A stretch of 64,000 nucleotides of DNA from Methylorubrum populi. Lineage in GTDB: Bacteria > Pseudomonadota > Alphaproteobacteria > Rhizobiales > Beijerinckiaceae. Within the stretch, counting starts at the first letter, position 1, and each line of letters starts with the position of its first letter. The translations under genes were made by a program, and so were the position numbers. The notes below the pieces were generated by a model. The model made no database searches. It worked only from the letters and a program-made list of their open reading frames with translations, and was not told where the DNA came from. Shown here piece by piece: positions 32,797 to 51,330 of the stretch. The stretch is taken from the NCBI RefSeq assembly GCF_002355515.1, contig NZ_AP014809.1, forward strand, positions 1,368,001 to 1,432,000, read 5' to 3'.

Positions 32797-33371
32797 CATC
32801 AACTCCAAGCACTCTGTGCTTTTTGTCGAAGATCCGAAAATCAACGACTCCAAGCGTAATTCGTCGATCAGAGCGAGATTTGCTCGGCATTAGAATGATG
32901 AAATCCGAGCAATCCCAGCCGCAAACATGCGGTTTAATCTGGGTGATGGAAGCTATAATTCTGAAAATAATTTTTTACTCTGCACTAGTATACGCTGCTT
33001 CAATGTGTCGTAGCTCAAATATGGAAAGTCTATTCTTTGAAAATATTATTTTCATTATGTGAGACGCTGACGCATACGGCACAATCAAATGCTTCAATTG
33101 GGGGCGGATCGTGAGCCGGAGGCTGTATTCGTGGGCGACGTCTCGGAGACCCCGCGCGAACCGCCCAAGCACGACTTCGGCATGTTGATGGAACGAGGTG
33201 GCTTCGCGGAGGAACCGCGCGGTAGGTTGATCCGGAGCGAAGGGTGGCGATGGCAGCAGACCGTGACTGGCTTGCAGAGCTGTCCCGGTGGCTCCAGCCG
33301 TCCCTGACGGCTCGATCTCATCCGGCCTGTGGCCCGATTGTCCGCTCCCCGTCGCCGGCCTGATGGGGCCG
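32797..33371. other. Upstream region of the adhesin gene
   Basis: The first ~280 bases are AT-rich and should hold the adhesin promoter. From 33070 the GC rises. No gene was recognised; a minus-strand 65-codon frame at 33172-32975 has no family features. Confidence 0.4.
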
Positions 33372-35997: not shown

Positions 35998-37503
35998 ATG
36001 TTGATCGTGGAGACCATCGCCAAGATCCGACGCTTGTTTCGTGAGCACCGGAGCATCCGGGAGATCTCGCGCGAGCTGCGCCTATCCCGCAAAGTCGTGC
36101 GCAAGGCGCTGCGCTCGGACAAGACCGCCTTCGCCTACAAGCGCCAGCACCAGCCCCGGCCGCAACTCGACGGACACATCGCGCGCCTCGACGTCCTGCT
36201 GGCCGAGGAGTTGATCAAGCCCAAACGCGAGCGCCTCAGCCTCACGCGCCTGTTTGAGGGGCTACGGGCGGAGGGCTATGCCGGCGGCTACGACGCGGTG
36301 CGCCGCTACGCGCAACGCTGGTTTGCGGAGCATGTCGCCACCGCCGCTGGTGTGTTCGTGCCGCTCGCCTTCGCGCCGGGTGAGGCCTACCAGTTCGACT
36401 GGAGCCACGAGACCATCCGACTTGCCGGCATCACCACGCAGGTCAAAGTCGCCCATATCCGGCTCTGCCACAGCCGGCTCTTCCTGCTGCGAGCCTACCC
36501 GCGTGAGACGCAGGAGATGGTCTTCGACGCCCATGAGCACGCCTTCCGGTTCTTCGGCGGCTCCTGCAGGCGCGGCATCTACGACAACATGCGCACCGCC
36601 GTCTCGGCAATCTTCGTGGGTCGCCAGCGCACCTTCAACCGCCGCTTCCTTCAGCTCTGCTCGCATCACCTGACCGAGCCCACCGCCTGCAACCCCAGCG
36701 CGGGCTGGGAGAAGGGACAGGTCGAGAACCAGGTGCGCACCGCCCGCAACCGCTTCTTCAAGCCGGTCCTGCGTTTCGAGACGCTGGTCGACCTCAACCA
36801 CTGGCTCGAGCAGCAGTGCCGGCTCTGGGCTTCCACCGCGGTCCATCCGGTTCAACGCGACCGCACCGTCCAAGCGGTCTTCGAGACCGAGGACCAGCCG
36901 GCGCTGATCCCCTACCGCGGCGCGTTCGACGGCTTCCACGAGGTCGAGGTGGTCACCTCCAAGACCTGCCTCGTGCGCTACGACTCCAACCGCTACTCGG
37001 TGGCCGCCCGCGCCGCCGGGCGACACGTGCAGCTGCGTGCCTATGCCGACCGGATCGCCATCTTCCTCACCGGCCAGATCGTGGCCGAGCATGCGCGTTG
37101 CTTCGGCCGCTACCAGACCGTCTACGATCCCTGGCACTACCTGCCCGTGCTGGCCCGCAAGCCCGGAGCGTTGCGCAACGGCGAGCCCTTCCGTGAGTGG
37201 GACCTGCCCGGCGGCTTGGCTCAGATCCGCGAGCGGTTGCGTGCACATGCCGATGGCGATCGGCAGTTCGTCGCGATCCTCTCGGCCGTGCCCGAGGCAG
37301 GCCTGGGGGCGGTCGAGGCTGCATGCACCGCCGCCTTGGCCGCGCGTCTGTTCAGCGCCGATGCGGTGCTCAACCTGCTCGCGCGCAGCCGCGAGAGCGT
37401 CCCCCCTGCGCCGGTGCCAACACCCGCCAGCTTGACGCTTGGGGTCGAGCCTGCGGCGGATTGCGCGCGCTACGACGGCCTGCGCGCTCTGGAGGCGATC
37501 TGA
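35998..37503 (+). CDS. istA: IS21-family transposase IstA
   Basis: 501 residues. An N-terminal helix-turn-helix ([22 protein letters not shown]) is followed by the DDE integrase core: first aspartate in YQFDWSHE, second in IYDNMRTAV and the glutamate in [11 protein letters not shown]. The C-terminal part is the usual IstA domain ([19 protein letters not shown]). It works with IstB for insertion. Intact. Confidence 0.95.
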
Positions 37504-38234
37504 TGGAGCGACACACCGTCGTCGACCTGATGGTCAAGCTCAAGCTGCGCGGCATGCGCGCCGCCTACGACGAGATCATCACGCAAGCTGGCAAGCGCGG
37601 ACATGCGCCAGAGCGGGTCGTGGGGGATTTGCTGGCCGCGCAACTGGCTGACGTGGAGAGTCGGGCCACGGCCTACCGCATGGGCAACGCGAAGTTCCCG
37701 GTCCTGAAGACGCTGGCCGAGTTTGACCTGACCGCCTCGCCGGTGAACGCGGCGATGGTGCGCGACCTGCACCAGGGCAACTTCCTGACTGACAGCCGCA
37801 ACGCGGTGCTGATCGGCGGCACGGGCTCGGGTAAGACGCATCTGGCCATCGCGATCGGGGCGAACTGTGTGCGGGAGCGGGAGGCGCGGGTGCGCTTCTT
37901 CAACACGGTCGATCTGGTCAACCAGCTTGAGGCAGAGGCGCGGGCAGGCAAGGCCGGCCGGCTGGCCTCACAGCTGGCACGGATGGACCTCGTGATCCTG
38001 GACGAACTCGGCTACCTACCGTTCCCGCGCGCTGGCGGGCAGATGCTGTTCCATCTGGTCAGCCGGCTCTACGAGCGAACCTCGATGATCGTGACGACGA
38101 ACCTGCCGTTTGGCGAGTGGCCGAGCGTGTTCGGGGACGCGAAGATGACAACGGCGCTACTCGACCGGCTCACGCACCACTGCGATATCCTGGAAACGGG
38201 CAATGCCAGCTGGCGGCTGAAGACGCGCAGCTGA
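37503..38234 (+). CDS. istB: IS21-family helper ATPase IstB
   Basis: 243 residues of the DnaC/IstB AAA+ group. Walker A is GGTGSGKTH, Walker B is [12 protein letters not shown], and a sensor-1 asparagine appears in [12 protein letters not shown]. The start ATG overlaps the istA stop by one base (TGATG), giving coupled translation. It assists target selection by IstA. Confidence 0.95.
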
Positions 38235-38452: not shown

Positions 38453-39340
38453 CTACCGGCCCTTGGCGAGGCTGACGGCGATGACGGCAGCGACCACGGC
38501 GGCGGCGGTCTCCGAGGGCGGCGCCTCGGGCAGGCTCGCGGCGATGGCCGCCGGGATGGTCGCGGCCGAGGAGGCCGACTGGTTCGACAGGACCACCGCG
38601 ACCTGGGCCGCGACCAGGGCGGCCTCGGGCACGGCCCCCGGCGCTTCCGGCACGGTGATCGGCTCGTCGGGCGCTTCCAGAACGTAGCCCGTGCCTCGAA
38701 CGGTGCGCACCATCGCGGTGGCGCCCGAACCCATGAGATGGCCGCGCAGGCGGTAGATGCCGACCTCGATGGCATTCGAGGAGACCTCGTCCTCGAAGCT
38801 GTAGAGTCCTTCCTCCAGAACGCCCTTCGCCACCGTCTTGCCGGCCCGGCGGATCAGCATCTCGAAGATGCAGGTTTCCCGGCGCGGCATGCGCAGCGGC
38901 TTGCCCGCCACCCGCACCTCGCGGTTGCCGGGATCGAAGGTCACGTTGCCGGCCCGCAGGACCTGGTCGAGCGTGGCGACGGGCCGGCGCATGACCGCCC
39001 GGATCCGGGCGATGAGCTCGTCGAGCGGCATCGGCTTGAGGATGTAGTCGTCCGCCCCGGCATTCAGACCCTCGACCCGATGGTCGACCGCGTCCCGCTC
39101 GGCGGTGATGATCAGCATCGGCACTGTGCTGCCGGAGCGCCGCTGCTCCCGGACCCAGTCGAGGCCGTCGCCATCCGGCAGCATGCGGTCCACGAGAATC
39201 GCCTCGTAGGGGGCGAGCGTGGCCGAGAGGCTCGCATCGGAGAGCGTCGTCACGTGGTCGGCGACGAAGCCCTCGTCCCGCAGGATCGCGCCGATGCAAT
39301 CGGCACAGGCCTGATCATCGTCGACGACAAGAATCCGCAT
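38453..39340 (-). CDS. OmpR-type response regulator with a long Ala-rich C-terminal tail
   Basis: 295 residues. The receiver domain (residues 1-118) has the acidic cluster D7-D9, the phosphoacceptor D51 in ILVDRMLPDGDGLDW, a TAERD motif and the lysine in ILKPMPLDEL. The winged-helix DNA-binding domain follows (PLRMPRRETCIFEMLI, EVGIYRLRGHLM, RTVRGTGYVLEAP, about residues 128-228). A further ~65 residues of Ala/Val-rich sequence (VAAQVAVVLSNQSA, AAAVVAAVIAVSLAKGR) are not part of the family. No histidine kinase gene adjoins. It reads away from the DUF1521 gene's upstream side on the same strand, separated by 300 bp. Confidence 0.85.
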   Translation of the reverse strand: MRILVVDDDQACADCIGAILRDEGFVADHVTTLSDASLSATLAPYEAILVDRMLPDGDGLDWVREQRRSGSTVPMLIITAERDAVDHRVEGLNAGADDYILKPMPLDELIARIRAVMRRPVATLDQVLRAGNVTFDPGNREVRVAGKPLRMPRRETCIFEMLIRRAGKTVAKGVLEEGLYSFEDEVSSNAIEVGIYRLRGHLMGSGATAMVRTVRGTGYVLEAPDEPITVPEAPGAVPEAALVAAQVAVVLSNQSASSAATIPAAIAASLPEAPPSETAAAVVAAVIAVSLAKGR

Positions 39341-39639: not shown

Positions 39640-40722
39640 TCAGGCCGCGGCGGCCTCCGCTGCGTCGATGATCGACTGATCGACGGCCTTGCCGTCCTTC
39701 GTCTGCCACGCGCCGCCGTTCTCGTAGATCGTGGTCGAGCCGTCATGCTCCAGATCGTCGAGGGTGGCACCGGCGTCGGACTGCTTCACCTCGAGGTTGT
39801 TCTCGCCGTCATGCGCGTCGCCGAGACCCGTCACCTGCATGGCCTTGTCACCGTTGGTAATCGTCAGCGAGGATGAGAAGGTGGTGCCGTTCTCGCCACC
39901 CGGGACGGTGCCCACCGTGATCTTGGTGCCATCGTCGAGCTTGAAGGTCATGTCCTTCTTGAAGTCGAAATCGTTCTTGCCGTCGTTGTCCGTGTCGACA
40001 TGGGGGTCGCCCCAGACCTTGGTGGTCTTGCCGGTCTCGTTGTTGGTCACCGTCCAGGTTGCGTCCTTCTCATTGGCCTGGATGGTGTACTTGTCGCCGA
40101 GCTGGATCGTCGCCTCGCCGTCCTTGAGCTCGTGGCTCCAGACACCCGTGTTCGCGCTCTCACCCGTGCTCTCATCCGCGCTCGCGGCCGGACCGGAGGC
40201 GGCGCTCGGCGTGGCCGATCCCGCATCCGCTTCCTCGGACGGAGCCTCCGACGGCGCCTCGGCCTGAAGCTTCGACATCAGCGTGGCGATGCCGTCGAGC
40301 AGGGTGTTCTTGGCGTTCTTGGAAAGATCCGAGTCGGCCACTCGGTCGGCAATCTCCTGGAAGCCGCTCATGAGCTCGGCCGGGCTCGCCGCCTCGTCCT
40401 CCGCACCGGCCTCGGCGGTCTGCGCCGTGCCCGCGGCCCGGGATTCGCCCGCGCCGGACGTCTCGGCGGAGGCGTCGGACGCGCCGGCCTGGGAGGCCGC
40501 CGCGAAGCCCTCCGCGAAGCCATCGATCAGGGCGCGCTTCTGCTCCGGATTCTTGGTCTCCTTCACGTCGGCGAGGAAGGCCGCGCCGCCGGAGCGGGGC
40601 GATTCCTCCTGGCCGAGCAGGGCGTTGAGGAAGTTCTGGGCGGCCACGGCGCCGTTGTCCGAGAGGCCGCTGCCCGCGAGGGCGCCGTTCGCGCCCGACA
40701 CGTTCGAGATTCCGAAAGACAT
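39640..40722 (-). CDS. DUF1521 protein with a calcium-induced self-cleavage motif (NopE1-like)
   Basis: 360 residues. The first ~190 are Ala/Ser/Glu-rich and probably disordered, apart from a helical part around 114-152. Residues ~193-345 form the DUF1521 domain: VWSHELKDGEATIQLGDKY, then VWGDPHVDTDNDGKNDFDF. The GDPHVD at 238-243 is the site where Bradyrhizobium NopE1 and Vibrio homologues cleave themselves between Asp and Pro on adding calcium, and the following DTDNDGKND is a likely Ca-binding loop. NopE1 is a type III effector; no type III genes are in this window. No Sec signal. Probably secreted by another route. Confidence 0.85.
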   Translation of the reverse strand: MSFGISNVSGANGALAGSGLSDNGAVAAQNFLNALLGQEESPRSGGAAFLADVKETKNPEQKRALIDGFAEGFAAASQAGASDASAETSGAGESRAAGTAQTAEAGAEDEAASPAELMSGFQEIADRVADSDLSKNAKNTLLDGIATLMSKLQAEAPSEAPSEEADAGSATPSAASGPAASADESTGESANTGVWSHELKDGEATIQLGDKYTIQANEKDATWTVTNNETGKTTKVWGDPHVDTDNDGKNDFDFKKDMTFKLDDGTKITVGTVPGGENGTTFSSSLTITNGDKAMQVTGLGDAHDGENNLEVKQSDAGATLDDLEHDGSTTIYENGGAWQTKDGKAVDQSIIDAAEAAAA

Positions 40723-41279
40723 GATTCAGCTCCGAAGAGGTTCGGTCGGGAGCCGGTCGAGGCCCGCATGCACGCGCCGCACTGACGACCGACGGTGAGG
40801 CCTTCGGGTGCCGGAGCCAACCGGGGCCGAAGCTCCGGGCAACCGGCGCCCCTGCCGGCGCGCTCCGATGGGTAGGCATGCCAGCTTTCGACAACCTGAC
40901 GGACCGGGCTGCCTCGAGCGAAACAAGTCAAAAATCGATCTCTGCTTGCCGTCGAGCGCTCACACGACACTGCATACCAGCTCCGACAGTTGTTTCATCG
41001 CGATCAAGGCATATTGATCGTTCTGCTGCGCTGATACGGAGAGATGGAAAGAAGGCAGACCTTCGCGGATCGCTCGCCACGCGACGAGGCCCGTCCTTTT
41101 TTCGGCCTCAAGGACCCGCTCGTCAGGTCGACGTCAGCTCGCCCGGCTACCACCGAGGCGCAGCGTTCGACGGAGCCGGGCCACCGATATCCCGCCCTTC
41201 TCGTCGTCCGGCCGCAATGGTCCGACGTGGCTCGCGCCCTTCGAAACGGGTCCGGCCGCGCCACGCACGGGGGTGGAGG
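40723..41279. other. Intergenic region between the divergent DUF1521 and Cys-rich genes
   Basis: Divergent promoter region. Frames that cross it (for example 41044-41586) lack coding character. An AT-richer tract lies at 40920-41050. No operator recognised. Confidence 0.4.
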
Positions 41280-43145
41280 ATGCCGCAGATCGTCGACAGG
41301 CCCCTGGCGGCCCGGAACCGGGACCAAGCGCGGTCCGAGGCGCGGCCGGGCGGGGACGACTCGTCCTGGACCCCCGCCCTCGATCGCGCCGTGCCATCGC
41401 CCGGTCCGGACACCGGACGCACCCCCATGGCGGTGCCGGCCTCGGCTTCAGGGCAGAGCGCGCAGCCCGGCGCAACGCCGGCCTCCGATCCGGCCAACGA
41501 CAACGTGGTCAGCCACACGGTCCGGGAAGGCGAGTCGCTCTGGAGCATCTCCCGAGATTACGGCCGCCCCTTCCCCGAGGTGGTGAAGGCCAATCCGCAA
41601 TTCCGTGATCCCGACCTGATCTATCCCGGCGACCGGGTGAACGTTCCGATGGGCGCGCCGCCCGCAACTCCCCCTGCGCCGCTCCCTACGCCGCCCTCGG
41701 GCGGACCGGGGACCACGGCCGGGGCGCCTCCCGCGACACCGCCCGGCAACACACTGCCGGGCGCGCCGCTCCAGCCCGGTCCCGCGCCTTCGGTGCCGCA
41801 GCCGTCCGGCGCATCCTCGCCGCCCTGCGGCGTCGATGCCAGCATCGGCACGGTCTGCGCGGCCAACACCAACGTGCCCTGCGGCGTCGATCTCGGGGCC
41901 GGCACGGCCTGCGGCGGCAATGCGGCGGCTCCCTGCGGCGGAAATCTCACGGCCGGGCGGGCCTGCGGCGGCAACGCCTCGGGCCCCTGCGCCGCCAAGC
42001 TCACCGGCGGCAGCGCCTGCGGCGGGAAGGCCAGCGCCTGCGCGGCCGATGCCGGCTTCGGCACGATCTGCGCCGCCGATATCGGCGCCTGCGGCGGCAA
42101 TGCGAGCGCGGGGACGGCCTGCGCCGCCAAGGAGACCGCCTGCGGCGCCAATGCCGGCACCGGCAATGCCTGCGCCACGAATTTCGGTGCCTGCGGCGCG
42201 AAAACGACGACCGGCAAGGCCTGCGGCGTCGATGGCAGCGTCTGCGGCTCCCGCTACAGCGCCCCGACGCTGTGCGGCGTCGACGGCAATCTCGCCTGCG
42301 GCCAGAAGGGCAGCGCCGGAGCGACCGGGGCCGGAATCGACGTCTGCGGATCGGACAATGCGATCGAGCTGTGCGGCAGCGATGTCGGCGCCTGCGGCGG
42401 CAATCTCGGCGCGGAGGCCTGCGGCGCCGATGGCAACGTCTGCGGCACCGACGCGACGGTCGAGGCTTGCGGGGCGGATGCCAATGCCTGCGCGGCCGAC
42501 GCGACGGTGGAGGCCTGCGGCGCCGATGCGGGCGCCGAGGCCTGCGGGGCCGATGGCGGGGTCTGCGGCGCGGACGGCACCATCGAGGCCTGCGGGGCCG
42601 ACGCAGATGTCTGCGGAGCGAATGCGGGCGCCGAAATCTGCGGCGCCGATGGCGGGGCCTGCGGCGCCGATGCGGGCGTGGAGGCCTGCGCCGCGGACGG
42701 CAACGCCTGCGCGGCCGATGCCGCGGTCGAGGCTTGCGGGGCGGATGCCAATGCCTGCGGCGCCGATGCCAGCGTGGAGGCCTGCGGGGCGGACGGTGCG
42801 GCCTGCGGGGCGGACGCCAATGTCGAGGCCTGCGGAGCGGACGGCAATGCCTGCGGCGCCGATGCCCGGGCGGAGGCCTGCGGGGCGGATGCCGATGCCT
42901 GCGCGGCCAATGCCAGCGCCGACGCGTGCGGCGCCGATGCCGATGCCTGCGCGGCGAATGCCAGCGCCGATGCCTGCGGCGCGGATGCCGATGCCTGCGC
43001 GGCCAAGGCGGGGGCTGATGTCTGCGCGGTCGATACCGGACTCTGTGCGGCCAATCTCGGCGGCGTCTGCGGCGTCGATGCGCCGCTCGGCGATCCGGTC
43101 TCGTTCTGCGCCGTCAACGTGATCCCGCTGTTGCCCTCATGCTGA
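41280..43145 (+). CDS. LysM protein with a cysteine-rich repeat domain, candidate radical SAM substrate
   Basis: 621 residues. The N-terminal ~75 are disordered. A LysM domain (VREGESLWSISRDYGRPFPEVV, ending DRVNVPMG) at about residues 79-125 should bind peptidoglycan or chitin-like glycans. A Pro-rich linker follows to about residue 180. The rest is repeats with about 52 cysteines. The first half has an ~18-residue period (CGVDLGAGTACGGNAAAP), the second a strict 16-residue period (EACGADANACGADASV). Nearly every Cys starts C-G/A-x-D/N. No Sec signal found. The start at 41280 has GGTGGAGG directly before ATG, which is too close; 41217 and 41427 are alternatives. It overlaps the next gene by 7 bp. 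Function unknown. Confidence 0.8.
   Translation: MPQIVDRPLAARNRDQARSEARPGGDDSSWTPALDRAVPSPGPDTGRTPMAVPASASGQSAQPGATPASDPANDNVVSHTVREGESLWSISRDYGRPFPEVVKANPQFRDPDLIYPGDRVNVPMGAPPATPPAPLPTPPSGGPGTTAGAPPATPPGNTLPGAPLQPGPAPSVPQPSGASSPPCGVDASIGTVCAANTNVPCGVDLGAGTACGGNAAAPCGGNLTAGRACGGNASGPCAAKLTGGSACGGKASACAADAGFGTICAADIGACGGNASAGTACAAKETACGANAGTGNACATNFGACGAKTTTGKACGVDGSVCGSRYSAPTLCGVDGNLACGQKGSAGATGAGIDVCGSDNAIELCGSDVGACGGNLGAEACGADGNVCGTDATVEACGADANACAADATVEACGADAGAEACGADGGVCGADGTIEACGADADVCGANAGAEICGADGGACGADAGVEACAADGNACAADAAVEACGADANACGADASVEACGADGAACGADANVEACGADGNACGADARAEACGADADACAANASADACGADADACAANASADACGADADACAAKAGADVCAVDTGLCAANLGGVCGVDAPLGDPVSFCAVNVIPLLPSC
41820..43115 (+). repeat. Tandem Cys-rich coding repeats, 48-bp and ~54-bp periods
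   Basis: The DNA encoding the Cys repeats is itself repetitive. From about 42415 to 43060 the unit is 48 bp (16 codons) with at least 12 copies, one unit shortened to 27 bp near 42520. The earlier part (41820-42260) uses looser units near 54 bp. Confidence 0.85.
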
Positions 43146-43648
43146 TGATCGACCTGCGCAACGGGAACGCGCGCCTCTCCCTCGCCGAGATCGTCACCGG
43201 CGGCCGGCGCTACGTCTCGGCCCCGGCCGCCTTCGCCGGCTTCATGGCGGGCCTGCGGCTCGGCCCCGAGCTGCTGACCGAGCCCGGCTGGCAATTGCCG
43301 GCGGGCGCGGCCGGCCGCTTCGCCTTCTTCCGCACGCTGATGCACGGGGTGATCCCCCGCTTCTACGACGCGGCCCATCTCGAGCGTCTCGGCGGGCGCT
43401 TCGCCCTGCGCCTCGACGGCGCGGGGGCGGGCGGGGGCGGCATCGGCGACTACACGGTCATCGCCCTGAACCGGCGGGTGCTCACGCTGTCCGGGCTGCC
43501 CCTCGACGAGGACGGGGCCGAACCCGTGATCGACGCCGCGATCCGCGCCGACACCTTCCTGGCGCTGTGGAACGACCTGCTCGCCGACCTCGCCGCCACG
43601 ACGCTCACCCGGATCGAGGCCGCCCGCGCGGCTCGCCCGGCTGCCTGA
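43139..43648 (+). CDS. Unknown protein of the Cys-repeat/radical SAM cluster
   Basis: 169 residues. It starts inside the last codons of the Cys-rich gene (ATG 43139, stop of the former at 43145), so translation is coupled. No catalytic motif, metal ligand set or membrane helix is evident; the protein has no cysteine. Stretches such as GRFAFFRTLMHGVIPRFYDAAH and GDYTVIALNRRVLTLSGLP suggest a folded alpha/beta protein. Position between the putative substrate and the maturase suggests a partner or chaperone in modification. I do not recognise the family. Confidence 0.75.
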   Translation: MLMIDLRNGNARLSLAEIVTGGRRYVSAPAAFAGFMAGLRLGPELLTEPGWQLPAGAAGRFAFFRTLMHGVIPRFYDAAHLERLGGRFALRLDGAGAGGGGIGDYTVIALNRRVLTLSGLPLDEDGAEPVIDAAIRADTFLALWNDLLADLAATTLTRIEAARAARPAA

Positions 43649-43665
43649 ACCGAAGGAGACGACCG

Positions 43666-45345
43666 ATGCTCGACTTCGACGCCCCCGCAACCCCCGTCAC
43701 CGAGGAGGCGAACGAGGCCCTGGAGGCCGCCGCGCGGCGGACGCTGGCGCGGGTGCAGCCCCGCAGGCCTGCGGGCCCGGCCGCCACCCGCTATCGCCTC
43801 TCGCGCTACGACATCCCGGTGCGGCTCGCCGACGACTCGGCCCTCTTGTTCAACGCCCGCACCCGCTCGCTCGTGCTGCTCTCGCCCGCCGAGGCGCGCG
43901 CCTATCGCGGCCTCGCCGAGGCCGGCGCGTTCGGCGCCGACGCGGTGGAGGACCGGCTCCTGCTTCAGGCGCTGATCGGCGGCGGCCACGCCGTCGGGGC
44001 GAGTGTCGACGAATTGGCGCTGGTGCGGCGCAGCTACGAGGCGACCCGGGCCGCCAAGGGAAGCCTGACGCTCACCCTCGCACCGACCATGGCCTGCAAC
44101 TTCGCCTGCGGCTACTGCTTCCAGGGGCTCAACAAGCCCACCAAGAAGATGACGCCGGACGTGCAGAACGCGATCCTCGACTTCGTGAAGTCGAAGCCGG
44201 ATCTGAAGTCGCTCTCGGTCGTCTGGTACGGCGGCGAGCCGCTGATGGGCCGGGACTCGATCTTCCGCCTGTCCGACCGGCTCATCAGCTACTGCGACAA
44301 GAACAAGATCGCCTACAGCGCCGGCATCGTCTCGAATGCGTGGTTCCTCGACGCCGAGATGGCCGCCCAGCTCTACACCCGCCGGGTGAAGTGGGTGCAG
44401 GTGACGATCGACGGTGACCGCGACACCCACGACCGGATGCGGCCGCTCACCTCCGGCGGTCGCACCTTCGACCGCATCCTCGACAACATCGAGCAGGCCC
44501 TCGACGAGACCGCGATCGCGATCCAGGCGCGGGTCAATGTCGGGATCAGCAATGTCGGGCAGGCCGACGCCATGCTCGACGACTTCGCCGCCCGCCGGCT
44601 GGCGCAGCGGGGCAATTTCGGCGTCTACTTCGCGCCCATCGAGGCCTCGACCCCGGAGAGCGGCAGCGCCTTCACCGAGAAGCTGTCGCGGGCCGACTTC
44701 AACCGCAGGGTCCTCGCGCTTGAAGGCAAGGCGCGCCAGCTCGGCTTTGCCGGCATCCAGACGCCGCCGAGCGGCTTCTCGGGGATGTGCGTGGCGGCCT
44801 CGAACAGCGGTTACGTCGTGGCCGGCAACGGCGACGTGCACAAGTGCTGGGAGACCGCCCACGATCCGAGCAAGCGCACCGGCAGCATCTTCGAGCCCGA
44901 AAAGCTGCACGAGAGCGTGAACGCCACGCTGTGGTCGCAATGGACCCCGTTCGACAACCCGACCTGCGCCTCGTGCAAGATCCTGCCGATGTGCGGCGGC
45001 TTCTGCGCCCATCGCTTCATCTACGCCAACCCGGAAGAGGCGGCCCTGCCTTGCCCGAGCTGGAAATGGAACACCGCCGAGTACGTCTTCGCCCGGGCCA
45101 AGGATCTCGGCGTCGTCCGCCCGGACCAATGGCTCGCCAGCGAGGCGACGGTGGAGGCGAAGCAGTCGGGCGAGCGCCAGTCGCTCGCCTCGCTCCAGAC
45201 CTCGCAGGCGCGGGTGCTGGAGAAGGTCTCCGCCCTGCACGGCCGCAGCTTCGACCGCGACCAGCTCTTCGCCGGCGAGGCGGCCCTGGAGGCCGCGCCC
45301 GCACCGGTCCATGCCGAGGCTCGCCCGGAGGCGGTGGCGCCGTGA
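43666..45345 (+). CDS. Radical SAM/SPASM peptide maturase
   Basis: 559 residues. The N-terminal ~120 residues (YDIPVRLADDSALLFNARTR and on) look like the leader-binding front part of SPASM maturases. The radical SAM motif C144-x3-C148-x2-C151 (MACNFACGYCFQG) binds the cluster that cleaves SAM, and VVWYGGEPLM is the GGEP motif. The SPASM domain has C375, C394, C434, C437, C443, C447 and C463, enough for two auxiliary clusters. A strong site GAAGGAGA precedes ATG 43666. It lies 17 bp after the unknown gene. Enzymes of this group make thioether or C-C crosslinks on peptides; the adjacent Cys repeats are the obvious substrate. Reaction not proven. Confidence 0.92.
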   Translation: MLDFDAPATPVTEEANEALEAAARRTLARVQPRRPAGPAATRYRLSRYDIPVRLADDSALLFNARTRSLVLLSPAEARAYRGLAEAGAFGADAVEDRLLLQALIGGGHAVGASVDELALVRRSYEATRAAKGSLTLTLAPTMACNFACGYCFQGLNKPTKKMTPDVQNAILDFVKSKPDLKSLSVVWYGGEPLMGRDSIFRLSDRLISYCDKNKIAYSAGIVSNAWFLDAEMAAQLYTRRVKWVQVTIDGDRDTHDRMRPLTSGGRTFDRILDNIEQALDETAIAIQARVNVGISNVGQADAMLDDFAARRLAQRGNFGVYFAPIEASTPESGSAFTEKLSRADFNRRVLALEGKARQLGFAGIQTPPSGFSGMCVAASNSGYVVAGNGDVHKCWETAHDPSKRTGSIFEPEKLHESVNATLWSQWTPFDNPTCASCKILPMCGGFCAHRFIYANPEEAALPCPSWKWNTAEYVFARAKDLGVVRPDQWLASEATVEAKQSGERQSLASLQTSQARVLEKVSALHGRSFDRDQLFAGEAALEAAPAPVHAEARPEAVAP

Positions 45346-46226
45346 ACGCGGTCTCTCCGGCCCGGACCTTTGCCGCGCAGGCCCGCTTCGACACGGTTGT
45401 CGCCGAGGCCTTCGCCGCGACGCGGACGACGCGCCACGCCCGCGACCGCCTGATCGCGCGCCTCCATCGCGGCGCCTATGACGGGCTGCTGCTGCGGCAG
45501 GCCGAGGGGTTTTCCGCGCTTCCCGAGGCGAGCGAGCGCCGGGCGGCGCTCAACGCCATCGACTTCGCCTTCGAGCCGCTGGTGCTGGGAAGCCTCTCGG
45601 TGGCGCAGGCCGACGCCTACTTCGCCGGCATCGAGGCGGTGCTGCGAGTCGGGCCGGCGGAGGGGCTGTACCGGCCCGGCCCGCTCTGGCTCGACACCGT
45701 GCACCATGCTTGCGTCTTCTCGGTGCTCTACCGGATGGCGGCCTTCCTGAAAGCGCGCCGGGGAATCGGGACCGTCGTCCTGCTCCACCAGGGCCTGCGG
45801 CCCGAGCCGCGGCTCGGCCTCGCCGCCAACGTGCTGGCGAGGATGCACGGGGTCGCGCTCCATCTGCTGCCGCTGCGCGGCCACTGGTTCGCCGAGCTGG
45901 CGCGGCGCGCCACGCCCGACCTCGCCGTCTTCTCTCTCTGCGATATGCCGCGCGAGGCGCTCGGCCCGATACCGGCGCGGCGCCTGCGGGCGCGGCTCGA
46001 TCTCCATGCGGGGCCGGGCCTGCGCCGCGGCGTCGAGACCGTCTCGGGGTCGGAGGTGTTCGCCCGGCGGCTCGGGGCCGCCCATCTCGTCCTCGACTAT
46101 CCCTCCCGCGATCGCATCCGCGTCCGGCCCCATGACGGCGGGCCGGCCCTCTGCCCCGTGGAGGATTGGGTGTTCTGGCCCGCCCTGGTGGCGCGGGGAC
46201 GTCCCGACACCGCCCCAGAGGCTTGA
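45342..46226 (+). CDS. Unknown protein of the Cys-repeat/radical SAM cluster
   Basis: 294 residues, starting with a GTG that overlaps the maturase stop (GTGA), so the two are coupled. The protein is Ala/Arg/Leu-rich and mostly helical. Notable stretches are LWLDTVHHACVFSVLYRMAAFL, VLLHQGLRPEPRLGL, RMHGVALHLLPLRGHWF and a C-terminal PVEDWVFWPALVARG. The histidines in these blocks could be functional. No signal peptide. I recognise no family; a transferase or hydrolase role is possible but not shown. Confidence 0.75.
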   Translation: MNAVSPARTFAAQARFDTVVAEAFAATRTTRHARDRLIARLHRGAYDGLLLRQAEGFSALPEASERRAALNAIDFAFEPLVLGSLSVAQADAYFAGIEAVLRVGPAEGLYRPGPLWLDTVHHACVFSVLYRMAAFLKARRGIGTVVLLHQGLRPEPRLGLAANVLARMHGVALHLLPLRGHWFAELARRATPDLAVFSLCDMPREALGPIPARRLRARLDLHAGPGLRRGVETVSGSEVFARRLGAAHLVLDYPSRDRIRVRPHDGGPALCPVEDWVFWPALVARGRPDTAPEA

Positions 46227-46245
46227 GCCTCGAACAGGAGCCCCC

Positions 46246-46608
46246 ATGCACTCCGAGATCCAAGCCCTGGCCGACGGCTTCGCCCAGGTCTTCAACGCCG
46301 GACGGACCGGAGATCTGGCCGTCCTCTACGCCCCCGAAGCCCGGATCGTGCCGCCGGGCCGACCGGCGGTGGCCGGTTCGGACCAGATCTGCGGCTTCTT
46401 CTCGGACATCCGCGCCCAGGGCTTCCGCGACTACGCGGTCGAGGTCGGCGACGTCTTCGCGCGCGACGGCGTGGTGGTCGCCTCCGGCCGCTGGCGGCTC
46501 ACCGGACCCGGCCCGGACGGCCCGCATCACGCCTACGAAGGCAACTGGCTCAACCTGCTCGACCGCGAGCCGGGCGGCTGGCGCATCCTCGTGCATATGT
46601 GGAACTGA
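46246..46608 (+). CDS. NTF2-like / SnoaL-type small protein
   Basis: 120 residues. The start (MHSEIQALADGFAQVFNAGRTGDLAVLYAPEARIVPPG) and end (NWLNLLDREPGGWRILVHMW) follow the cone-shaped NTF2/SnoaL fold seen in DUF4440-type proteins. These serve as small ligand-binding proteins or isomerases. AGGAG lies 5 bp before ATG 46246, and the gene follows the unknown protein by 19 bp, so it belongs to the Cys-repeat operon. Its role there is not known. Confidence 0.75.
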   Translation: MHSEIQALADGFAQVFNAGRTGDLAVLYAPEARIVPPGRPAVAGSDQICGFFSDIRAQGFRDYAVEVGDVFARDGVVVASGRWRLTGPGPDGPHHAYEGNWLNLLDREPGGWRILVHMWN

Positions 46609-46663
46609 CCACGGAAGGGACGGCGGAACGCACCCGCCCCCCGACCCCTCGCCGGAGACGCGA

Positions 46664-47164
46664 ATGACCCTGATGCGGTGCCCGGATTGCGGACGGCAGG
46701 TGAGCGACAGGGCCGTCTCCTGCCCGACTTGCGGGCGTCCCCTTTCGGCCGGGCGCCGCGGCATGGCGGCGAACGCACCGGTCTATGCCGGCTTCGAGTA
46801 CCGTTCCGAGCGGACGCTGTTGGGCTGGCCCCTCGTCCACGTGATCTACGGCGCGACGGACAACGGCACCTTGAGGCCCGCCCGCGGCGTCTTCGCCTTC
46901 GGCAACATCGCGATCGGCCTCGTCGCCTTCGGCGGCATCGCCGTCGGCGGCATCGCGCTCGGGGGCATCGCCATCGGCCTCATCAGCCTCGCCGGCGTCG
47001 CGCTCGGGCTGCTCCTCGGCCTCGGGGGCATCGCCACCGGCTACTGGGCGCTGGGCGGCGTCGCACTCGGCGCCACCGCGATCGGAGGCGTCGCCTTCGG
47101 TGCGCACACGCTGCAGAACGATCCGGACTTGATGCGGACGCTGCGCAGTCTGTTCTTTGGCTAG
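46664..47164 (+). CDS. Zinc-ribbon protein with Gly-rich membrane segment
   Basis: 166 residues. An N-terminal zinc ribbon (MRCPDCGRQVSDRAVSCPTCGRPLS, four Cys in two CxxC pairs) is followed by a soluble linker and then about 75 residues of Gly/Ala/Ile repeats with a five-residue beat (GGIAV, GGIAL, GGIAI, then GVALG). This would make either two to three membrane helices or a short pentapeptide-like coil. The tail is HTLQNDPDLMRTLRSLFFG. It ends the Cys-repeat operon. The function is unknown. Confidence 0.75.
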   Translation: MTLMRCPDCGRQVSDRAVSCPTCGRPLSAGRRGMAANAPVYAGFEYRSERTLLGWPLVHVIYGATDNGTLRPARGVFAFGNIAIGLVAFGGIAVGGIALGGIAIGLISLAGVALGLLLGLGGIATGYWALGGVALGATAIGGVAFGAHTLQNDPDLMRTLRSLFFG

Positions 47165-47239: not shown

Positions 47240-47680
47240 TCAGCGGCCTGCCTGTGCCAGCTTCATGAGGTTGTGAGCCGTGCAGATCATCGCCCACTCG
47301 CCCCGGACCTGATCGAGCCCTCTCATCAGGCACTGCCGGAAGCCTCGGGCCTGCTTGATCTGCCCGAACACCGGCTCGGCCACCTGCTTCCTGAGACGAT
47401 ACCGACTGCGGCGCCCAGCCCCCTTCAGGCGGGCGGCCATCGCGCTCATCAACGGCATCTTGGTCAGCCTCCGGCGGCCGGCTGCGTCCGCCTCGCCATG
47501 ACGCGCCCGGCCCGGAGCAAGGTAGCCCGTGATGCCCCGCTCTCTTAGCGCGACGAGGTTCGCCTCGTTGGCAAAGCCGGCATCGCCCGAGACCACTCGC
47601 GGTTTGCGCCCGAGATGACTGCCGACCCCATCCGCCTCTGCGGACACATCACCGGCACTCGAATGGCCTCTCCGCCGATC
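47240..47680 (-). pseudogene. C-terminal part of an IS1182-family transposase
   Basis: The frame (up to 47821) ends with SGDAGFANEANLVALRERGI, then YRLRKQVAEPVFGQIKQARGF and MICTAHNLMKLAQAG. This is the last third of an IS1182-type transposase with its final catalytic glutamate (AEPVFGQIK). The N-terminal two-thirds are missing and sequence upstream of about 47680 is unrelated. Confidence 0.8.
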
Positions 47681-48208
47681 CCTAGCGCATCCGACGCAAC
47701 TCGAACGGGTGAACTTTGCCGGGGAGAGAACCACGCCGTCCTCCCACTGAGCGGTTAGAGCATTCTGACACTCCGCGCAGCGCCGTTGCGTCAGCCGTCT
47801 CACGCCCGCGCAGGCCGACACTCCGCCTGTCGCTCAGGCCGGGTGAAACACGCCAAAGCCGCGCCGCCATCGCCTGCTGTAGCAGCCTGCTAGAATGCAG
47901 TCCGACGAATTGGTCACCGGTTTGTCGCCGGAGGGGCAACCCGGATAGCCCGCCCCCAGCACTGCGTGCAAAATACGGCCAGCGCGCTTGCGTTGCACTG
48001 ATTTATAATTCAGATTTCGACTGGCTGTCGGCCTAGGCTCAGGCTGCGCCCTTCAAGGCATTGAAATTACTGGCTGTTGCCGTCGGTTGGGGTGTCGGCC
48101 CACGAACTGACCGGGCAACGCCGTCGAGGGGCTATCGGTGCTGCAACCTGGTCCTCAAGCCAAGATAACGGACCGCGTGCCGAAACGTGCGCCGTGGGAG
48201 GAGACGCT
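47681..48208. other. Region between the IS1182 relic and the Tct operon
   Basis: No gene recognised. It contains a partial copy of the dispersed extragenic repeat at 47892-47931 (ccgacgaattggtcaccggt) and, in its last ~130 bases, the probable promoter of the Tct operon. Confidence 0.4.
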
Positions 48209-49195
48209 ATGAGAGTTGCCGTGCAGGCCGCGATCGCGGCCCTGTTGTTGTCTGCTGCCCCAGTCCAGGCGTGGGAACCGACCAAGCCGATCGAGATCAT
48301 CGTCCCCTTCCCGCCCGGCGGATCATCCGACCAGATGGCGCGCACGATCCAGGGGGCGATTCAGAAGAACAACCTCGTCAAGCAGCCGATCATCATCGTG
48401 AACAAGCCCGCTGCGGCGGGCGGCGAGGCGATGCTCGATATCCAGAAATCGGCCGGCGACCCCCACAAGCTCATCACCACATCGAGCGGCATCTACATGA
48501 CGCCTCTCTCCACCAAGCTTCCGGTGAGCTGGAAGGACTTCACGCCGATCGCGATGATGGCGCAGGACGCCTTCGTGCTCTGGGTCAACAGCGCCAAACC
48601 CTACAAGACCGCCAGCGAGTTCATCGACGCTGCCAAGACGGCGAGCCCGCCGCTCAAGACCGGAGGGAACGGCTCGAAGCGCGAGGACCACCTGATCTCC
48701 GTGACGATGGAGCAGGCGACCAAGACCAAGATCACTTACGTGCCCTACCAGGGTGGTGGCCCGGCCTCCGTGCAACTCGCCGGCGGCCATATCGACGCGA
48801 ACATGAACAACCCGGCCGAGGAGATCGCCAATTGGCGCTCCGGCGCCGTCAAGCCGTTGTGCGCCTTCTCGCCCAAGCCGATGGAATACACCCAGAAGAT
48901 CACGGCCGATATGGCATGGTCCGACATCCCGACCTGCCAGTCGCAGGGCGTGAATGTCACCTACCAGATGCTGCGCGGCATGTTCATGCCCGGCAAGGTC
49001 ACGCCGGAGCAGCAGACCTTCTACGTCGAGCTGTTCAGGAAGGTCACCGAGACCCCGGACTGGAAATCTTACCTCGAGCGCAATGCGCTGGTGCCCGACT
49101 TCCGCTCCGGCCAGAGCTTCGTCGACTTCCTCACCGAGGACGAGCGCAAGCACAAGGAGCTGATGACCAAGGCCGGGTTCATCGCGACGAACTGA
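48209..49195 (+). CDS. Tripartite tricarboxylate transporter substrate-binding protein (TctC/Bug type)
   Basis: 328 residues. A signal peptide (residues 1-22, ending AAPVQA) precedes a Bug-fold binding protein: PIEIIVPFPPGGSSDQMAR, NKPAAAGGEAML, YVPYQGGGPASVQLAGGHID. In this family the PPGGSSD and GGxxxVQLAGGHID loops hold the carboxylate. It captures a small carboxylate in the periplasm and feeds the TctBA membrane pair next door. GGGAGGAG precedes ATG 48209. The ligand is not identifiable. Confidence 0.88.
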   Translation: MRVAVQAAIAALLLSAAPVQAWEPTKPIEIIVPFPPGGSSDQMARTIQGAIQKNNLVKQPIIIVNKPAAAGGEAMLDIQKSAGDPHKLITTSSGIYMTPLSTKLPVSWKDFTPIAMMAQDAFVLWVNSAKPYKTASEFIDAAKTASPPLKTGGNGSKREDHLISVTMEQATKTKITYVPYQGGGPASVQLAGGHIDANMNNPAEEIANWRSGAVKPLCAFSPKPMEYTQKITADMAWSDIPTCQSQGVNVTYQMLRGMFMPGKVTPEQQTFYVELFRKVTETPDWKSYLERNALVPDFRSGQSFVDFLTEDERKHKELMTKAGFIATN

Positions 49196-49276
49196 GCCCG
49201 CGCCCGGCCGCGCTGCCGGCCGTTTCGTCGAAGGGCGGCGCGGCCGAGGCGACCACTTGTTCAGGAAGTGCCCGAC

Positions 49277-49774
49277 ATGACCGAAGCCTCTCCCCCGCTT
49301 GCCGAGCGCGGCCTGTCGCGCCGCGCCGTCGAGATCGTCGTGGCGCTTCTGCTGCTCGGCCTTGCCGCGCTGGCCCTGTGGGACTCCTACGCGCGGGGCG
49401 CGGGCTGGGACAACGGGCCGGAAAACGGCTTCTTCCCGGCCCGCGTCGCCGCGATCTTGGGTGTCGCGGCCATCGCCGCTCTCGTGAGTGCCCTGCGGCG
49501 GGAGGACAGCATCTTCGTCACCTACGGCCAGCTCCGGCTCGTGGCCCAGGTCTTCGTGCCGCTGTTCCTCTACCTGCTGGGGATCGCCTTCCTCGGCATC
49601 TACCTGTCCTCGGCCCTGTTCATGGCCCTGTTCATGCTCACGCTCGGCTCCTTCCGCTGGTGGCAGACGGTGCTCGCCGCCGTGCTCGTGCCGCTCGTCA
49701 CTTTCTGGGTGTTCGAGCAACAGTTCCGGGTTCCGCTGCCGAAGGGACCGATCGAAGCCTTCGTCGGCTACTGA
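49277..49774 (+). CDS. tctB: Tripartite tricarboxylate transporter small membrane subunit (TctB)
   Basis: 165 residues with four predicted helices (IVVALLLLGLAALALW, VAAILGVAAIAALVSAL, VFVPLFLYLLGIAFLGIYL, VLAAVLVPLVTFWVF) and the short loop GPENGFFPARVA between the first two, as in TctB. AGGAAG lies ahead of ATG 49277; a GTG at 49268 is also in frame. It follows the binding-protein gene by 81 bp and precedes tctA by 29 bp. Confidence 0.87.
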   Translation: MTEASPPLAERGLSRRAVEIVVALLLLGLAALALWDSYARGAGWDNGPENGFFPARVAAILGVAAIAALVSALRREDSIFVTYGQLRLVAQVFVPLFLYLLGIAFLGIYLSSALFMALFMLTLGSFRWWQTVLAAVLVPLVTFWVFEQQFRVPLPKGPIEAFVGY

Positions 49775-49803
49775 CCTGACCGGCCCGCGGCGGAGAGATC
49801 TCC

Positions 49804-51330
49804 ATGGACGACCTCAACCAGCTCTTGCTCGGCTTCCAAGTCGCGCTGACGTGGCACAACATGCTGTTCATGGTGGTGGGCGTGCTGCTCGGCATCGTGG
49901 TGGGCGTGCTGCCGGGCCTCGGCGGCCCCAACGGCGTCGCGATCCTCCTGCCGTTGACCTTCGGCATGGACCCGACCTCGGCGATCATCCTCTTGTCGTC
50001 GATCTACTGGGGCGCCCTGTTCGGCGGCGCGATCACCTCGATCCTGTTCAACATTCCCGGCGAGGCGTGGTCGGTCGCCACCACCTTCGACGGCTATCCG
50101 CTGGCGCAGAAGGGCCGGGCCGGCGAGGCCTTGACGGCGGCCTTCACCGCCTCCTTCATCGGCGCGCTCTCGGGCGTGGTGCTCATCACCTTCGTGGCGC
50201 CGCTCGTGGCCAAGTTCGCCCTGCGCTTCGGCCCGGCCGAGTTCTTCGGCGTCTTCTTCCTCACCTTCTGCTCGTTCGTCGGCATGGGCCGGGAGAACAA
50301 GGCCAAGATTATCGTCTCGCTGGCGCTCGGCTTCCTGCTCGCGGCGGTCGGCCTCGACACCATCTCCGGCGACCTGCGCCTGACCTTCGGCACGCCGGAA
50401 CTGATGAAGGGCTTCGACCTCCTCGTCGTGGTGATTGGCCTGTTCGGCGTCTCCGAGATCCTGCTCACCATCGAGGAGGGCCTGCACTTCAAGGGCAAGC
50501 GGGCCGCCATGGATCTCGGCGTGGTCCTGCGCACCTGGGCCTCGCTGCCGCGCTACTGGGCGACGCTGATCCGCTCCTCGGTCGTGGGCATGTGGATGGG
50601 CGTCACCCCGGGCGGCGCGATCGCGGCCTCCTTCATGGGCTACGGCCTCGCCAAGCGGTTCTCCCGCCGGCCCGAGGAGTTCGGGCGGGGCGAGATCGAG
50701 GGCGTGCTGGCCCCCGAGACCGCGGCCCACGCCGCCGGCACCTCGGCGCTCCTGCCCATGCTGGCCCTCGGCATCCCCGGCTCGGCCACCGCGGCGGTGC
50801 TCCTCGGCGGCCTGATGATCTGGGGCCTGCAGCCCGGCCCGCTGCTCTTCGTCGAGAAGAAGGAATTCGTCTGGGGTCTGATCGCCTCGATGTATCTCGG
50901 CAACCTCGCCGGCCTCCTGATCGTGCTCGCGACCGTGCCGGTCTTCGCCGCGATCATGCGCATCCCCTTCGCGCTGGTCGCGCCGATCATCCTCGTCGTC
51001 TGCGCCATCGGCGCCTTCACGGTCGAGTCCTCGCGCTTCGACATCTGGCTGATGCTGATCTTCGGAGTTGTCGGCTACGTCTTCAAGAAGCTCGACTATC
51101 CGCTCGCGCCCCTGGTGCTCGCACTCGTCCTCGGCGACCGCGCCGAGGACGCGTTCCGCCAAGCCCTGCTCGGCTCGGGCGGGGACCTGTCCGTGTTCTT
51201 CTCGAATGGCCTCGTCTCGAGCCTGATGATCATCGGCCTGCTGCTCCTGTTCTGGGGGCCACTCGGCGACCTGCGCAAACGGCTGGCGCGCAAGGCCGGC
51301 CTCACCCGGCCGGCCCCGCTCGCGCATTGA
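49804..51330 (+). CDS. tctA: Tripartite tricarboxylate transporter large membrane subunit (TctA)
   Basis: 508 residues with about 11-12 membrane helices. The family motifs are present: GVLLGIVVGVLPGLGGPNGV, the SSIYWGALFGGAITSILFNIPGE region, and the second-half repeat AHAAGTSALLPMLALGIPGSATAAVLLGGLMIWG. It forms the Na+- or H+-coupled channel with TctB. It is the last gene of the operon; no regulator (such as a TctDE pair) adjoins. Confidence 0.93.
   Translation: MDDLNQLLLGFQVALTWHNMLFMVVGVLLGIVVGVLPGLGGPNGVAILLPLTFGMDPTSAIILLSSIYWGALFGGAITSILFNIPGEAWSVATTFDGYPLAQKGRAGEALTAAFTASFIGALSGVVLITFVAPLVAKFALRFGPAEFFGVFFLTFCSFVGMGRENKAKIIVSLALGFLLAAVGLDTISGDLRLTFGTPELMKGFDLLVVVIGLFGVSEILLTIEEGLHFKGKRAAMDLGVVLRTWASLPRYWATLIRSSVVGMWMGVTPGGAIAASFMGYGLAKRFSRRPEEFGRGEIEGVLAPETAAHAAGTSALLPMLALGIPGSATAAVLLGGLMIWGLQPGPLLFVEKKEFVWGLIASMYLGNLAGLLIVLATVPVFAAIMRIPFALVAPIILVVCAIGAFTVESSRFDIWLMLIFGVVGYVFKKLDYPLAPLVLALVLGDRAEDAFRQALLGSGGDLSVFFSNGLVSSLMIIGLLLLFWGPLGDLRKRLARKAGLTRPAPLAH

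Follow-up and report, generated by a model that had tools for sequence, protein, structure and literature searches.

A four-gene radical S-adenosylmethionine cassette with a cysteine-repeat protein, probably embedded in a type III secretion locus, in Methylorubrum populi

What does a radical S-adenosylmethionine (SAM) maturase do beside a protein with 52 cysteines in Methylorubrum populi, and where does the product of the pair go? We studied this question in a 64,000-nucleotide stretch of the genome (contig NZ_AP014809.1 of assembly GCF_002355515.1, positions 1,368,001 to 1,432,000, forward strand; hereafter the window, numbered from its first letter), in which six genes, g1 to g6, follow one another. 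An initial annotation had described here a candidate new peptide-modification system of six genes in one direction, with a LysM protein carrying about 52 cysteines in repeats, a complete radical SAM/SPASM enzyme and two partners that it could assign to no family. The description itself was borne out: all six frames lie on the + strand and are joined, from g1 to g6, by a 7-bp overlap, 17 bp, a 4-bp overlap, 19 bp and 55 bp. Our analysis adds a type III secretion system (T3SS) locus, tts-box-like sites, a DUF1521 partner, a shared C-terminal end and a predicted acyltransferase fold of g4. We favour, with modest confidence, the reading that g1-g4 are a maturation cassette like those of ribosomally synthesized and post-translationally modified peptides (RiPPs), that it belongs to a rhizobial-type T3SS locus, and that its product is thioether-crosslinked, T3SS-controlled and most likely T3SS-exported. 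The features of the cassette and its two accessory genes are:

41280-43145, + strand: g1, 621 residues with 52 Cys, LysM plus Cys-repeat protein, the proposed maturase substrate
41514-41648, + strand: LysM domain of g1, an optional module (PF01476, 36.2 bits, cut-off 20.9)
41826-43142, + strand: Cys-repeat region of g1, Cys spacing mostly 10/8 and 10/7 residues in the first part, 9/7 later
43104-43142, + strand: conserved C-terminal end of g1, FCAVNVIPLLPSC, of the form C.[VIL]N[VIL][IL]P..PSC, candidate recognition (follower) motif
43139-43648, + strand: g2, small protein of 169 residues, no family match over cut-off
43666-45345, + strand: g3, radical SAM/SPASM maturase of 559 residues, near TIGR04463 and below its cut-off
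45342-46226, + strand: g4, GTG start, 294 residues, predicted LpxM/PatA acyltransferase fold with Ser for the acid of HX4D/E
46246-46608, + strand: g5, SnoaL-like/DUF4440 protein of 120 residues, accessory (PF14534, 40.0 bits, cut-off 25.2)
46664-47164, + strand: g6, zinc-ribbon protein of 166 residues with Gly-rich hydrophobic repeats, accessory (PF13240, 26.2 bits, cut-off 25)

The initial annotation took the six genes for one system. A pattern-based scan with g3 over a collection of 84,980 species returned 42 loci, 18 of which (L009-L026, from Methylobacterium, Bradyrhizobium, Rhodomicrobium, Rhodobacterales and Parvularcula) make up the g3 clade; gene picks in these related loci rest on conservation of open reading frames, length or third-position GC content (GC3). 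The Cys-repeat gene and g2 accompany g3 in all 17 loci in which they could be tested (L017 begins inside g3; L010 and L022 hold the end of g1 only), so that a maturase occurring mostly alone, the outcome that would have spoken against the proposed pairing, was not seen. While g4 is present in 18 of 18 loci, g5 is found in only 12 and g6 in only 11; the conserved unit is therefore four genes, g1-g4, and a six-gene unit was rejected. Among the other 24 loci a Cys-repeat gene adjoins the maturase in four (L027, L028, L030 and L031) and none was seen in 20. Copy number and integrity vary within the clade: L021 carries three consecutive Cys-repeat genes, and in L015 the reading frames of both g1 and g2 appear to be broken (36 Cys, partial g2); they were kept as found.

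The same association holds at closer range. Across 111 genomes of Methylobacterium in the broad sense, the 159-residue repeat end of g1 (E <= 1e-10) and g3 (E <= 1e-80) were detected in the same six, and g4 in those six plus one weak match (E 2.5e-4). The window's genome carries one g1 locus; a protein search with g1, by a word search that is limited on repeats, gave six weak matches among 8000 scored candidates.

What might g3 do to g1? The enzyme carries the radical SAM domain (PF04055, 46.3 bits, cut-off 29.5), with its CX3CX2C motif at C144/C148/C151, and a SPASM domain (TIGR04085, 43.6 bits, cut-off 27) with seven Cys at 375, 394, 434, 437, 443, 447 and 463; an additional Cys stands at 210. 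It matches the NCBIfam family TIGR04463, 'rSAM_vs_C_rich', over its full length (440.1 bits, E 8e-132) and under the curated cut-off of 525; the maturases of L023, L025 and L026 score 415.7-452.9 bits. Together with its 18 relatives, g3 forms a 19-row clade with support of 100/100. The cut-off is passed by the Streptomyces L027 (546), Hormoscilla L028 (538) and Ruminiclostridium L030 (562) maturases, which adjoin Cys-every-fifth proteins, and the Fibrobacter L031 maturase (455 bits, trimmed protein) likewise adjoins a Cys-repeat protein. Another member, that of L077 (532 bits), has no Cys-repeat gene in the 14 kb read of its 22-kb contig, which carries an NHLM-type exporter. Because TIGR04463 members adjoin Cys-repeat proteins, the partnership was already known at the level of the family name, and a Cys-rich partner gene, as that name implies, is present in all 17 testable g3 loci. 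Of the claim to novelty this leaves a part: the alphaproteobacterial branch, with partner spacings of 7, 9 and 10 rather than mainly 5, and with g2 and g4, which among the 42 loci occur in this clade only, is a further variant of the TIGR04463-type partnership. In the Ruminiclostridium locus (L030, 11559-15060) one protein combines crystallin- and fascin-like domains with a Cys-every-fifth tail, and the gene that follows looks by eye like another radical SAM protein.

The cysteines of g1 span residue 183 to the end, beyond a LysM domain at about residues 79-123. C-[GA]-x-[DNK] holds 50 of the 51 testable Cys. When the other residues of the repeat region were shuffled 2000 times, D, N or K stood at +3 on average 9.2 times and at most 20 times. 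The presence of D, N or K at this position is not chance. Across 582 Cys in 15 alphaproteobacterial Cys proteins, picked by their PSC ending from a full set of 20, the +3 residue is D in 50%, N in 28% and K in 14%, and the +1 residue G in 59% and A in 30%. Since g3 is homologous to thioether-forming SPASM maturases and the C-x2-[DNK] pattern is strict, we propose thioethers to the +3 residue; crosslinking of g1 by g3 is thus plausible from sequence. The characterized maturase PapB accepts Cys-Xn-Asp with n = 0-6 (PMC9413430).

With the same cassette and target the chemistry could also be different: thioethers to the alpha carbon (sactionines), epimerisation or some other radical reaction in place of a thioether from Cys to a side chain. 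We regard this as an appreciable, if lesser, possibility, and it is compatible with the rest of our reading. The only solved relative of g3 found by sequence is 5wgg (36 bits), which we take to be CteB, a thioether maker, and distant partners often have no D, N or K at +3; the 50 of 51 motifs in g1 point the other way. A further alternative would make g1 a metal-binding or disulfide-rich structural protein, with g3 directed at a different peptide or at only a handful of residues. The dense Cys of g1 with nearby Asp and Asn could conceivably bind metal, and its modification is a prediction; however, the same six of 111 genomes hold g1 and g3, the two genes adjoin in every testable locus, and three TIGR04463 members that pass the cut-off likewise neighbour Cys-repeat proteins, of a different spacing. 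We consider this reading unlikely.

The ends of the Cys proteins are conserved as well. C.[VIL]N[VIL][IL]P..PSC is the C-terminus of 20 of 20 alphaproteobacterial Cys proteins of the g3 clade; the Ruminiclostridium Cys protein ends similarly, in CAIDIIPIIPGI, CAVNFLPEI lies internally in the Streptomyces one, and the Hormoscilla one has no g1-type C-terminal end. At the N-terminus a [KQ]x[IV]D motif is found in 14 of 17 rows, in several of which the start codon was chosen by that motif. Both termini are candidate recognition sequences outside the core, the C-terminal one as a follower motif.

LysM, by contrast with the repeats, is an optional module: none was seen in the Cys proteins of L020, L021 and L023-L026, though their repeats and C-terminal end are kept (a text pattern for LysM matched 8 of 17 rows; it passed over L009, where the alignment runs through the domain). 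In addition, the first 90 residues of g1 show no hydrophobic stretch, judged by hydropathy only (top 15-residue mean -0.01). The initial annotation had pictured g1 as wall-bound, and because LysM is optional and g1 lacks a hydrophobic signal this is doubtful. A crosslinked protein anchored to the wall by a LysM domain that does exceed its cut-off, with the T3SS irrelevant, is on these two observations the least probable of the alternatives that we weighed. Elsewhere, LysM recurs in a 1181-aa protein with no other known domains just upstream of g1 in the Bradyrhizobium locus L012 (4131-7676), with relatives in four more Bradyrhizobium loci; the LysM domains of g1 and of this protein are 51% identical over 53 aa. 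The Shimia T3SS locus (L102, 15907-16077) also has a LysM stretch, with 37% identity to the g1 domain, on a contig other than that of its cassette.

Where would such a product go? SctV scores over the T3SS cut-off in 10 of the 111 genus genomes (829-923 bits; next 595), and these ten hold all six carriers of the cassette. In the window's genome SctV (861.7 bits, cut-off 692.25) lies ~36 kb beyond g6, and a secretin C-part ~18 kb from g6. The cassette is found in 6 of 10 SctV-positive genus genomes against 0 of 101 others (p = 9e-8) and, taking as a T3SS subtype the eight genomes at 829-862 bits (two others reach 916-923), a line drawn after seeing the scores, in 6 of 8 against 0 of 103 (p = 1.2e-8); across the order (397 genomes), in which g2 was searched, SctV passes in 31 and g2 in five, all five within the 31 (Fisher p = 2.1e-6), and these Fisher p-values overstate independence because genomes share ancestry. 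Among carriers elsewhere, 11 of 13 other alphaproteobacterial ones have SctV over the cut-off, several Bradyrhizobium carriers with two or three such genes, and none of four distant ones does.

The arrangement of genes agrees with this co-occurrence. Under its cut-off, the T3SS secretin model picks up separate N- and C-parts in the six carriers, and in all six a C-part lies on the contig that carries the cassette. Genome G026 has SctU, S, R, Q, N and J on one strand, followed by the secretin N-part, SctD, SctY, SctV, a regulator, a DUF1521 gene, g1-g4 and the secretin C-part; R, Q, N, J, Y and V score over their cut-offs, and U, S and D do not. SctV, secretin and SctJ precede the cassette in L026, with SctV and SctJ over cut-offs, and 12 kb separate g2 from SctV in genome G280. 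In L024, g1 follows SctD-like and SctV-type genes; the SctV-type gene ends 156 bp ahead of g1 and scores 591 bits as SctV (cut-off 692) and 504 as FlhA, under both cut-offs.

Upstream of g1 the window holds a regulator, a DUF1521 gene and two tts-box-like sites:

38453-39340, - strand: OmpR-type response regulator, candidate regulator of the T3SS locus (PF00072, 75 bits; PF00486, 50 bits)
39640-40722, - strand: DUF1521 protein (NopE-type metal-inducible autocleavage domain) with a GDPH motif (PF07481, 214.6 bits, cut-off 23.6)
40873-40902, - strand: tts-box-like site before the DUF1521 gene, 1 mismatch to the published motif
41120-41149, + strand: tts-box-like site before g1, 2 mismatches to the published motif

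We searched with the full motif given in PMC5748692, to which all mismatches refer. A tts core pattern was tried and set aside, its 3-mismatch site before g1 being not above chance. In 100 shuffles the full motif had no match at two or fewer mismatches, against one and two for the window sites; since two motif forms were tried this is not a clean test, and recurrence against a control is the better one. In 9 of 15 loci from two genera a + strand site with 2-4 mismatches starts 81-160 bp upstream of g1, and the control gave 0 matches at four or fewer mismatches in 236,065 bases (controls were loci at hand, of 171,254 and 236,065 bases, the second including four cassette loci). In the window, one further match has 3-4 mismatches.

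The DUF1521 gene is the divergent neighbour of g1. Five of the six carriers encode its domain; of the 105 other genus genomes two do, and these have the same T3SS subtype without the cassette. According to PMC6506597, Ca2+ triggers self-cleavage of a studied DUF1521 member at GDPH, and this member and its NopE relatives are T3SS-secreted. Relatives of the OmpR-type regulator adjoin the DUF1521 gene and SctV in related loci. Taken together, the cassette is embedded in a T3SS locus and is probably part of the T3SS regulon. The absence of a hydrophobic N-terminus, the T3SS locus and the tts-box-like site lead us to suggest export by the T3SS.

The reading that we favour would proceed as follows. 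g3 would recognise g1 through its conserved ends, ...NVIPxLPSC at the C-terminus and xx[KQ]xxD at the N-terminus, perhaps helped by g2, and would install many small thioether rings, each most likely linking a Cys with the D, N or K at +3. g4 may add a further modification or act as a binding partner. The polycyclic product would be made under T3SS control and, having no Sec signal recognisable by hydropathy, would most likely leave through the T3SS. The thioether chemistry, the acceptor residue, the roles of g2 and g4 and the export route are all deductions from the evidence above.

Several observations weigh against this reading. No SctV that passes the cut-off was seen for L017 or L025. In none of the six genomes do the secretin pieces reach the T3SS cut-off, and type II GspD fits the C-part better (114 vs 65 bits in G026). 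SctV is on a contig other than the cassette's in L014, L021, L022, L023 and the draft genomes G004 and G037. L014, L020, L021, L023, L024 and L026 have no + strand tts-box-like site, by the motif used, before g1. The T3SS does not need the cassette, because G007 and G084 have the subtype without it. A polycyclic protein of 40-60 kDa may not pass the T3SS needle, and the modification of g1 is deduced from its sequence. D, N and K are not universal acceptors, because +3 is often Ala in the four distant partners (31% of 102 Cys).

In the Parvularcula locus L025 the gene string of the cassette includes NHLM-like exporter genes that score under their cut-offs. This suggests a swap of exporter from T3SS to NHLM, a suggestion weakened by genome G368, where a TIGR04463 member stands beside an NHLM exporter (912 bits, over the cut-off) and a T3SS is present on another contig. 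Since L025 has such exporter genes and no SctV over the cut-off, it is suggested that the product is exported in both settings. PMC8939145 describes a YscW homologue in some RiPP loci without other T3SS parts.

Some of these facts would also fit a self-contained RiPP-type system in a mobile, symbiosis-type island, whose product takes another exit route or stays in the cell and whose link to the T3SS is hitchhiking. Insertion sequence-type frames, recognised by eye, flank the locus: two frames resembling an IS21-type istA/istB pair (35998-38234, + strand), close to the regulator, given which the locus looks mobile or rearranged, and a transposase-like frame (47240-47821, - strand) between g6 and the secretin C-part. 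The L025 cassette, joined to exporter genes instead, and the separate SctV contig in four carriers point the same way. However, tts-box-like sites, as defined by the motif used, recur at the same place before g1 in two genera, the T3SS co-occurs with the cassette in the genus, the order and most other alphaproteobacterial carriers, and an SctV-type gene stands directly upstream in L024. We consider hitchhiking possible and rather improbable.

The T3SS-linked cassette has two partners, g2 and g4, without a Pfam or NCBIfam match over cut-off, in line with the initial annotation; weak family matches scattered over their relatives look like noise. The predicted structure of g2 (predicted local distance difference test, pLDDT, 89) has no significant fold match, SCP2-type domains recurring weakly; the RiPP recognition element (RRE/PqqD) is not among the fold matches listed, which excludes nothing. 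The Cys-repeat protein of L025 begins with a domain related to g2 (33% identity), PPC domains lying in between, and the g2 of L026 is divergent. Because g2 is fused in L025, a genome with no SctV over the cut-off, a role of g2 as a T3SS chaperone is unlikely. The predicted structure of g4 fits PatA and LpxM well above unrelated folds, and the model gives g4 the LpxM/PatA acyltransferase fold, unlike at the sequence level, where it has no match to these enzymes. HX4D/E is the catalytic motif of LpxL/LpxM/PatA acyltransferases. In g4 the motif reads H122-x4-S127 and, because the acid is Ser in all 65 rows, acyltransferase activity is only putative.

How does the cassette compare with known systems? 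In the CefA/CefB Cys-every-fifth system, compared via the CefB model only (NF038107, 161.5 bits), the maturase is homologous to g3 and the target is likewise Cys-dense; unlike CefB, g3 falls far under the 600-bit cut-off, and g1 spacing is mostly 7-10. The PapB/freyrasin ranthipeptides share SPASM maturase homology (g3 vs NF047865, 93 bits, under the 340-bit cut-off) and differ in that g1 has C-x2-[DNK], with ~50 motifs in 621 aa and a chemistry that is presumed. With the rhizobial (Rhc-type) T3SS that has NopE1 and tts boxes, as described in PMC3973906, the locus shares putatively split secretin-like genes, an OmpR-type regulator, a lipoprotein-type gene, DUF1521 and tts-box-like sites. A title-and-text search of the open-access part of the literature found no such radical SAM cassette described for rhizobial T3SS, and 'radical SAM' occurs 0 times in the rhizobial T3SS review PMC9569860.

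Other genes were noted around these loci. In the window, tripartite tricarboxylate transporter-like genes (48077-51330, + strand, by eye) lie between g6 and the secretin C-part, and a 4286-aa open frame with many Ig-like repeats (19993-32853, - strand, by eye) resembles a giant secreted adhesin. The T3SS neighbourhoods of L012 (23-1698) and L019 (888-4274, match under cut-off) contain proteins with a DNA/RNA non-specific endonuclease domain, the one in L012 with a YezG-like immunity gene.

Most RiPPs are short peptides carried out of the cell by ABC exporters, and we know of no T3SS cargo that is reshaped by radical SAM enzymes in the sender. That the T3SS here delivers a RiPP, namely a large ribosomally made protein on which a radical SAM enzyme has built dozens of small thioether rings in a chain, with an ABC-type peptide exporter taking the place of the T3SS in a relative without that T3SS, is an idea that we hold tentatively, as somewhat short of probable. 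If it is true, T3SS machines may export proteins modified by radical enzymes, and a maturase possibly acting ~50 times on one protein would be useful for making constrained peptides. T3SS-type control of a radical SAM cassette would connect the RiPP and T3SS fields and would suggest that plant-associated bacteria secrete a new class of rigid polymer.

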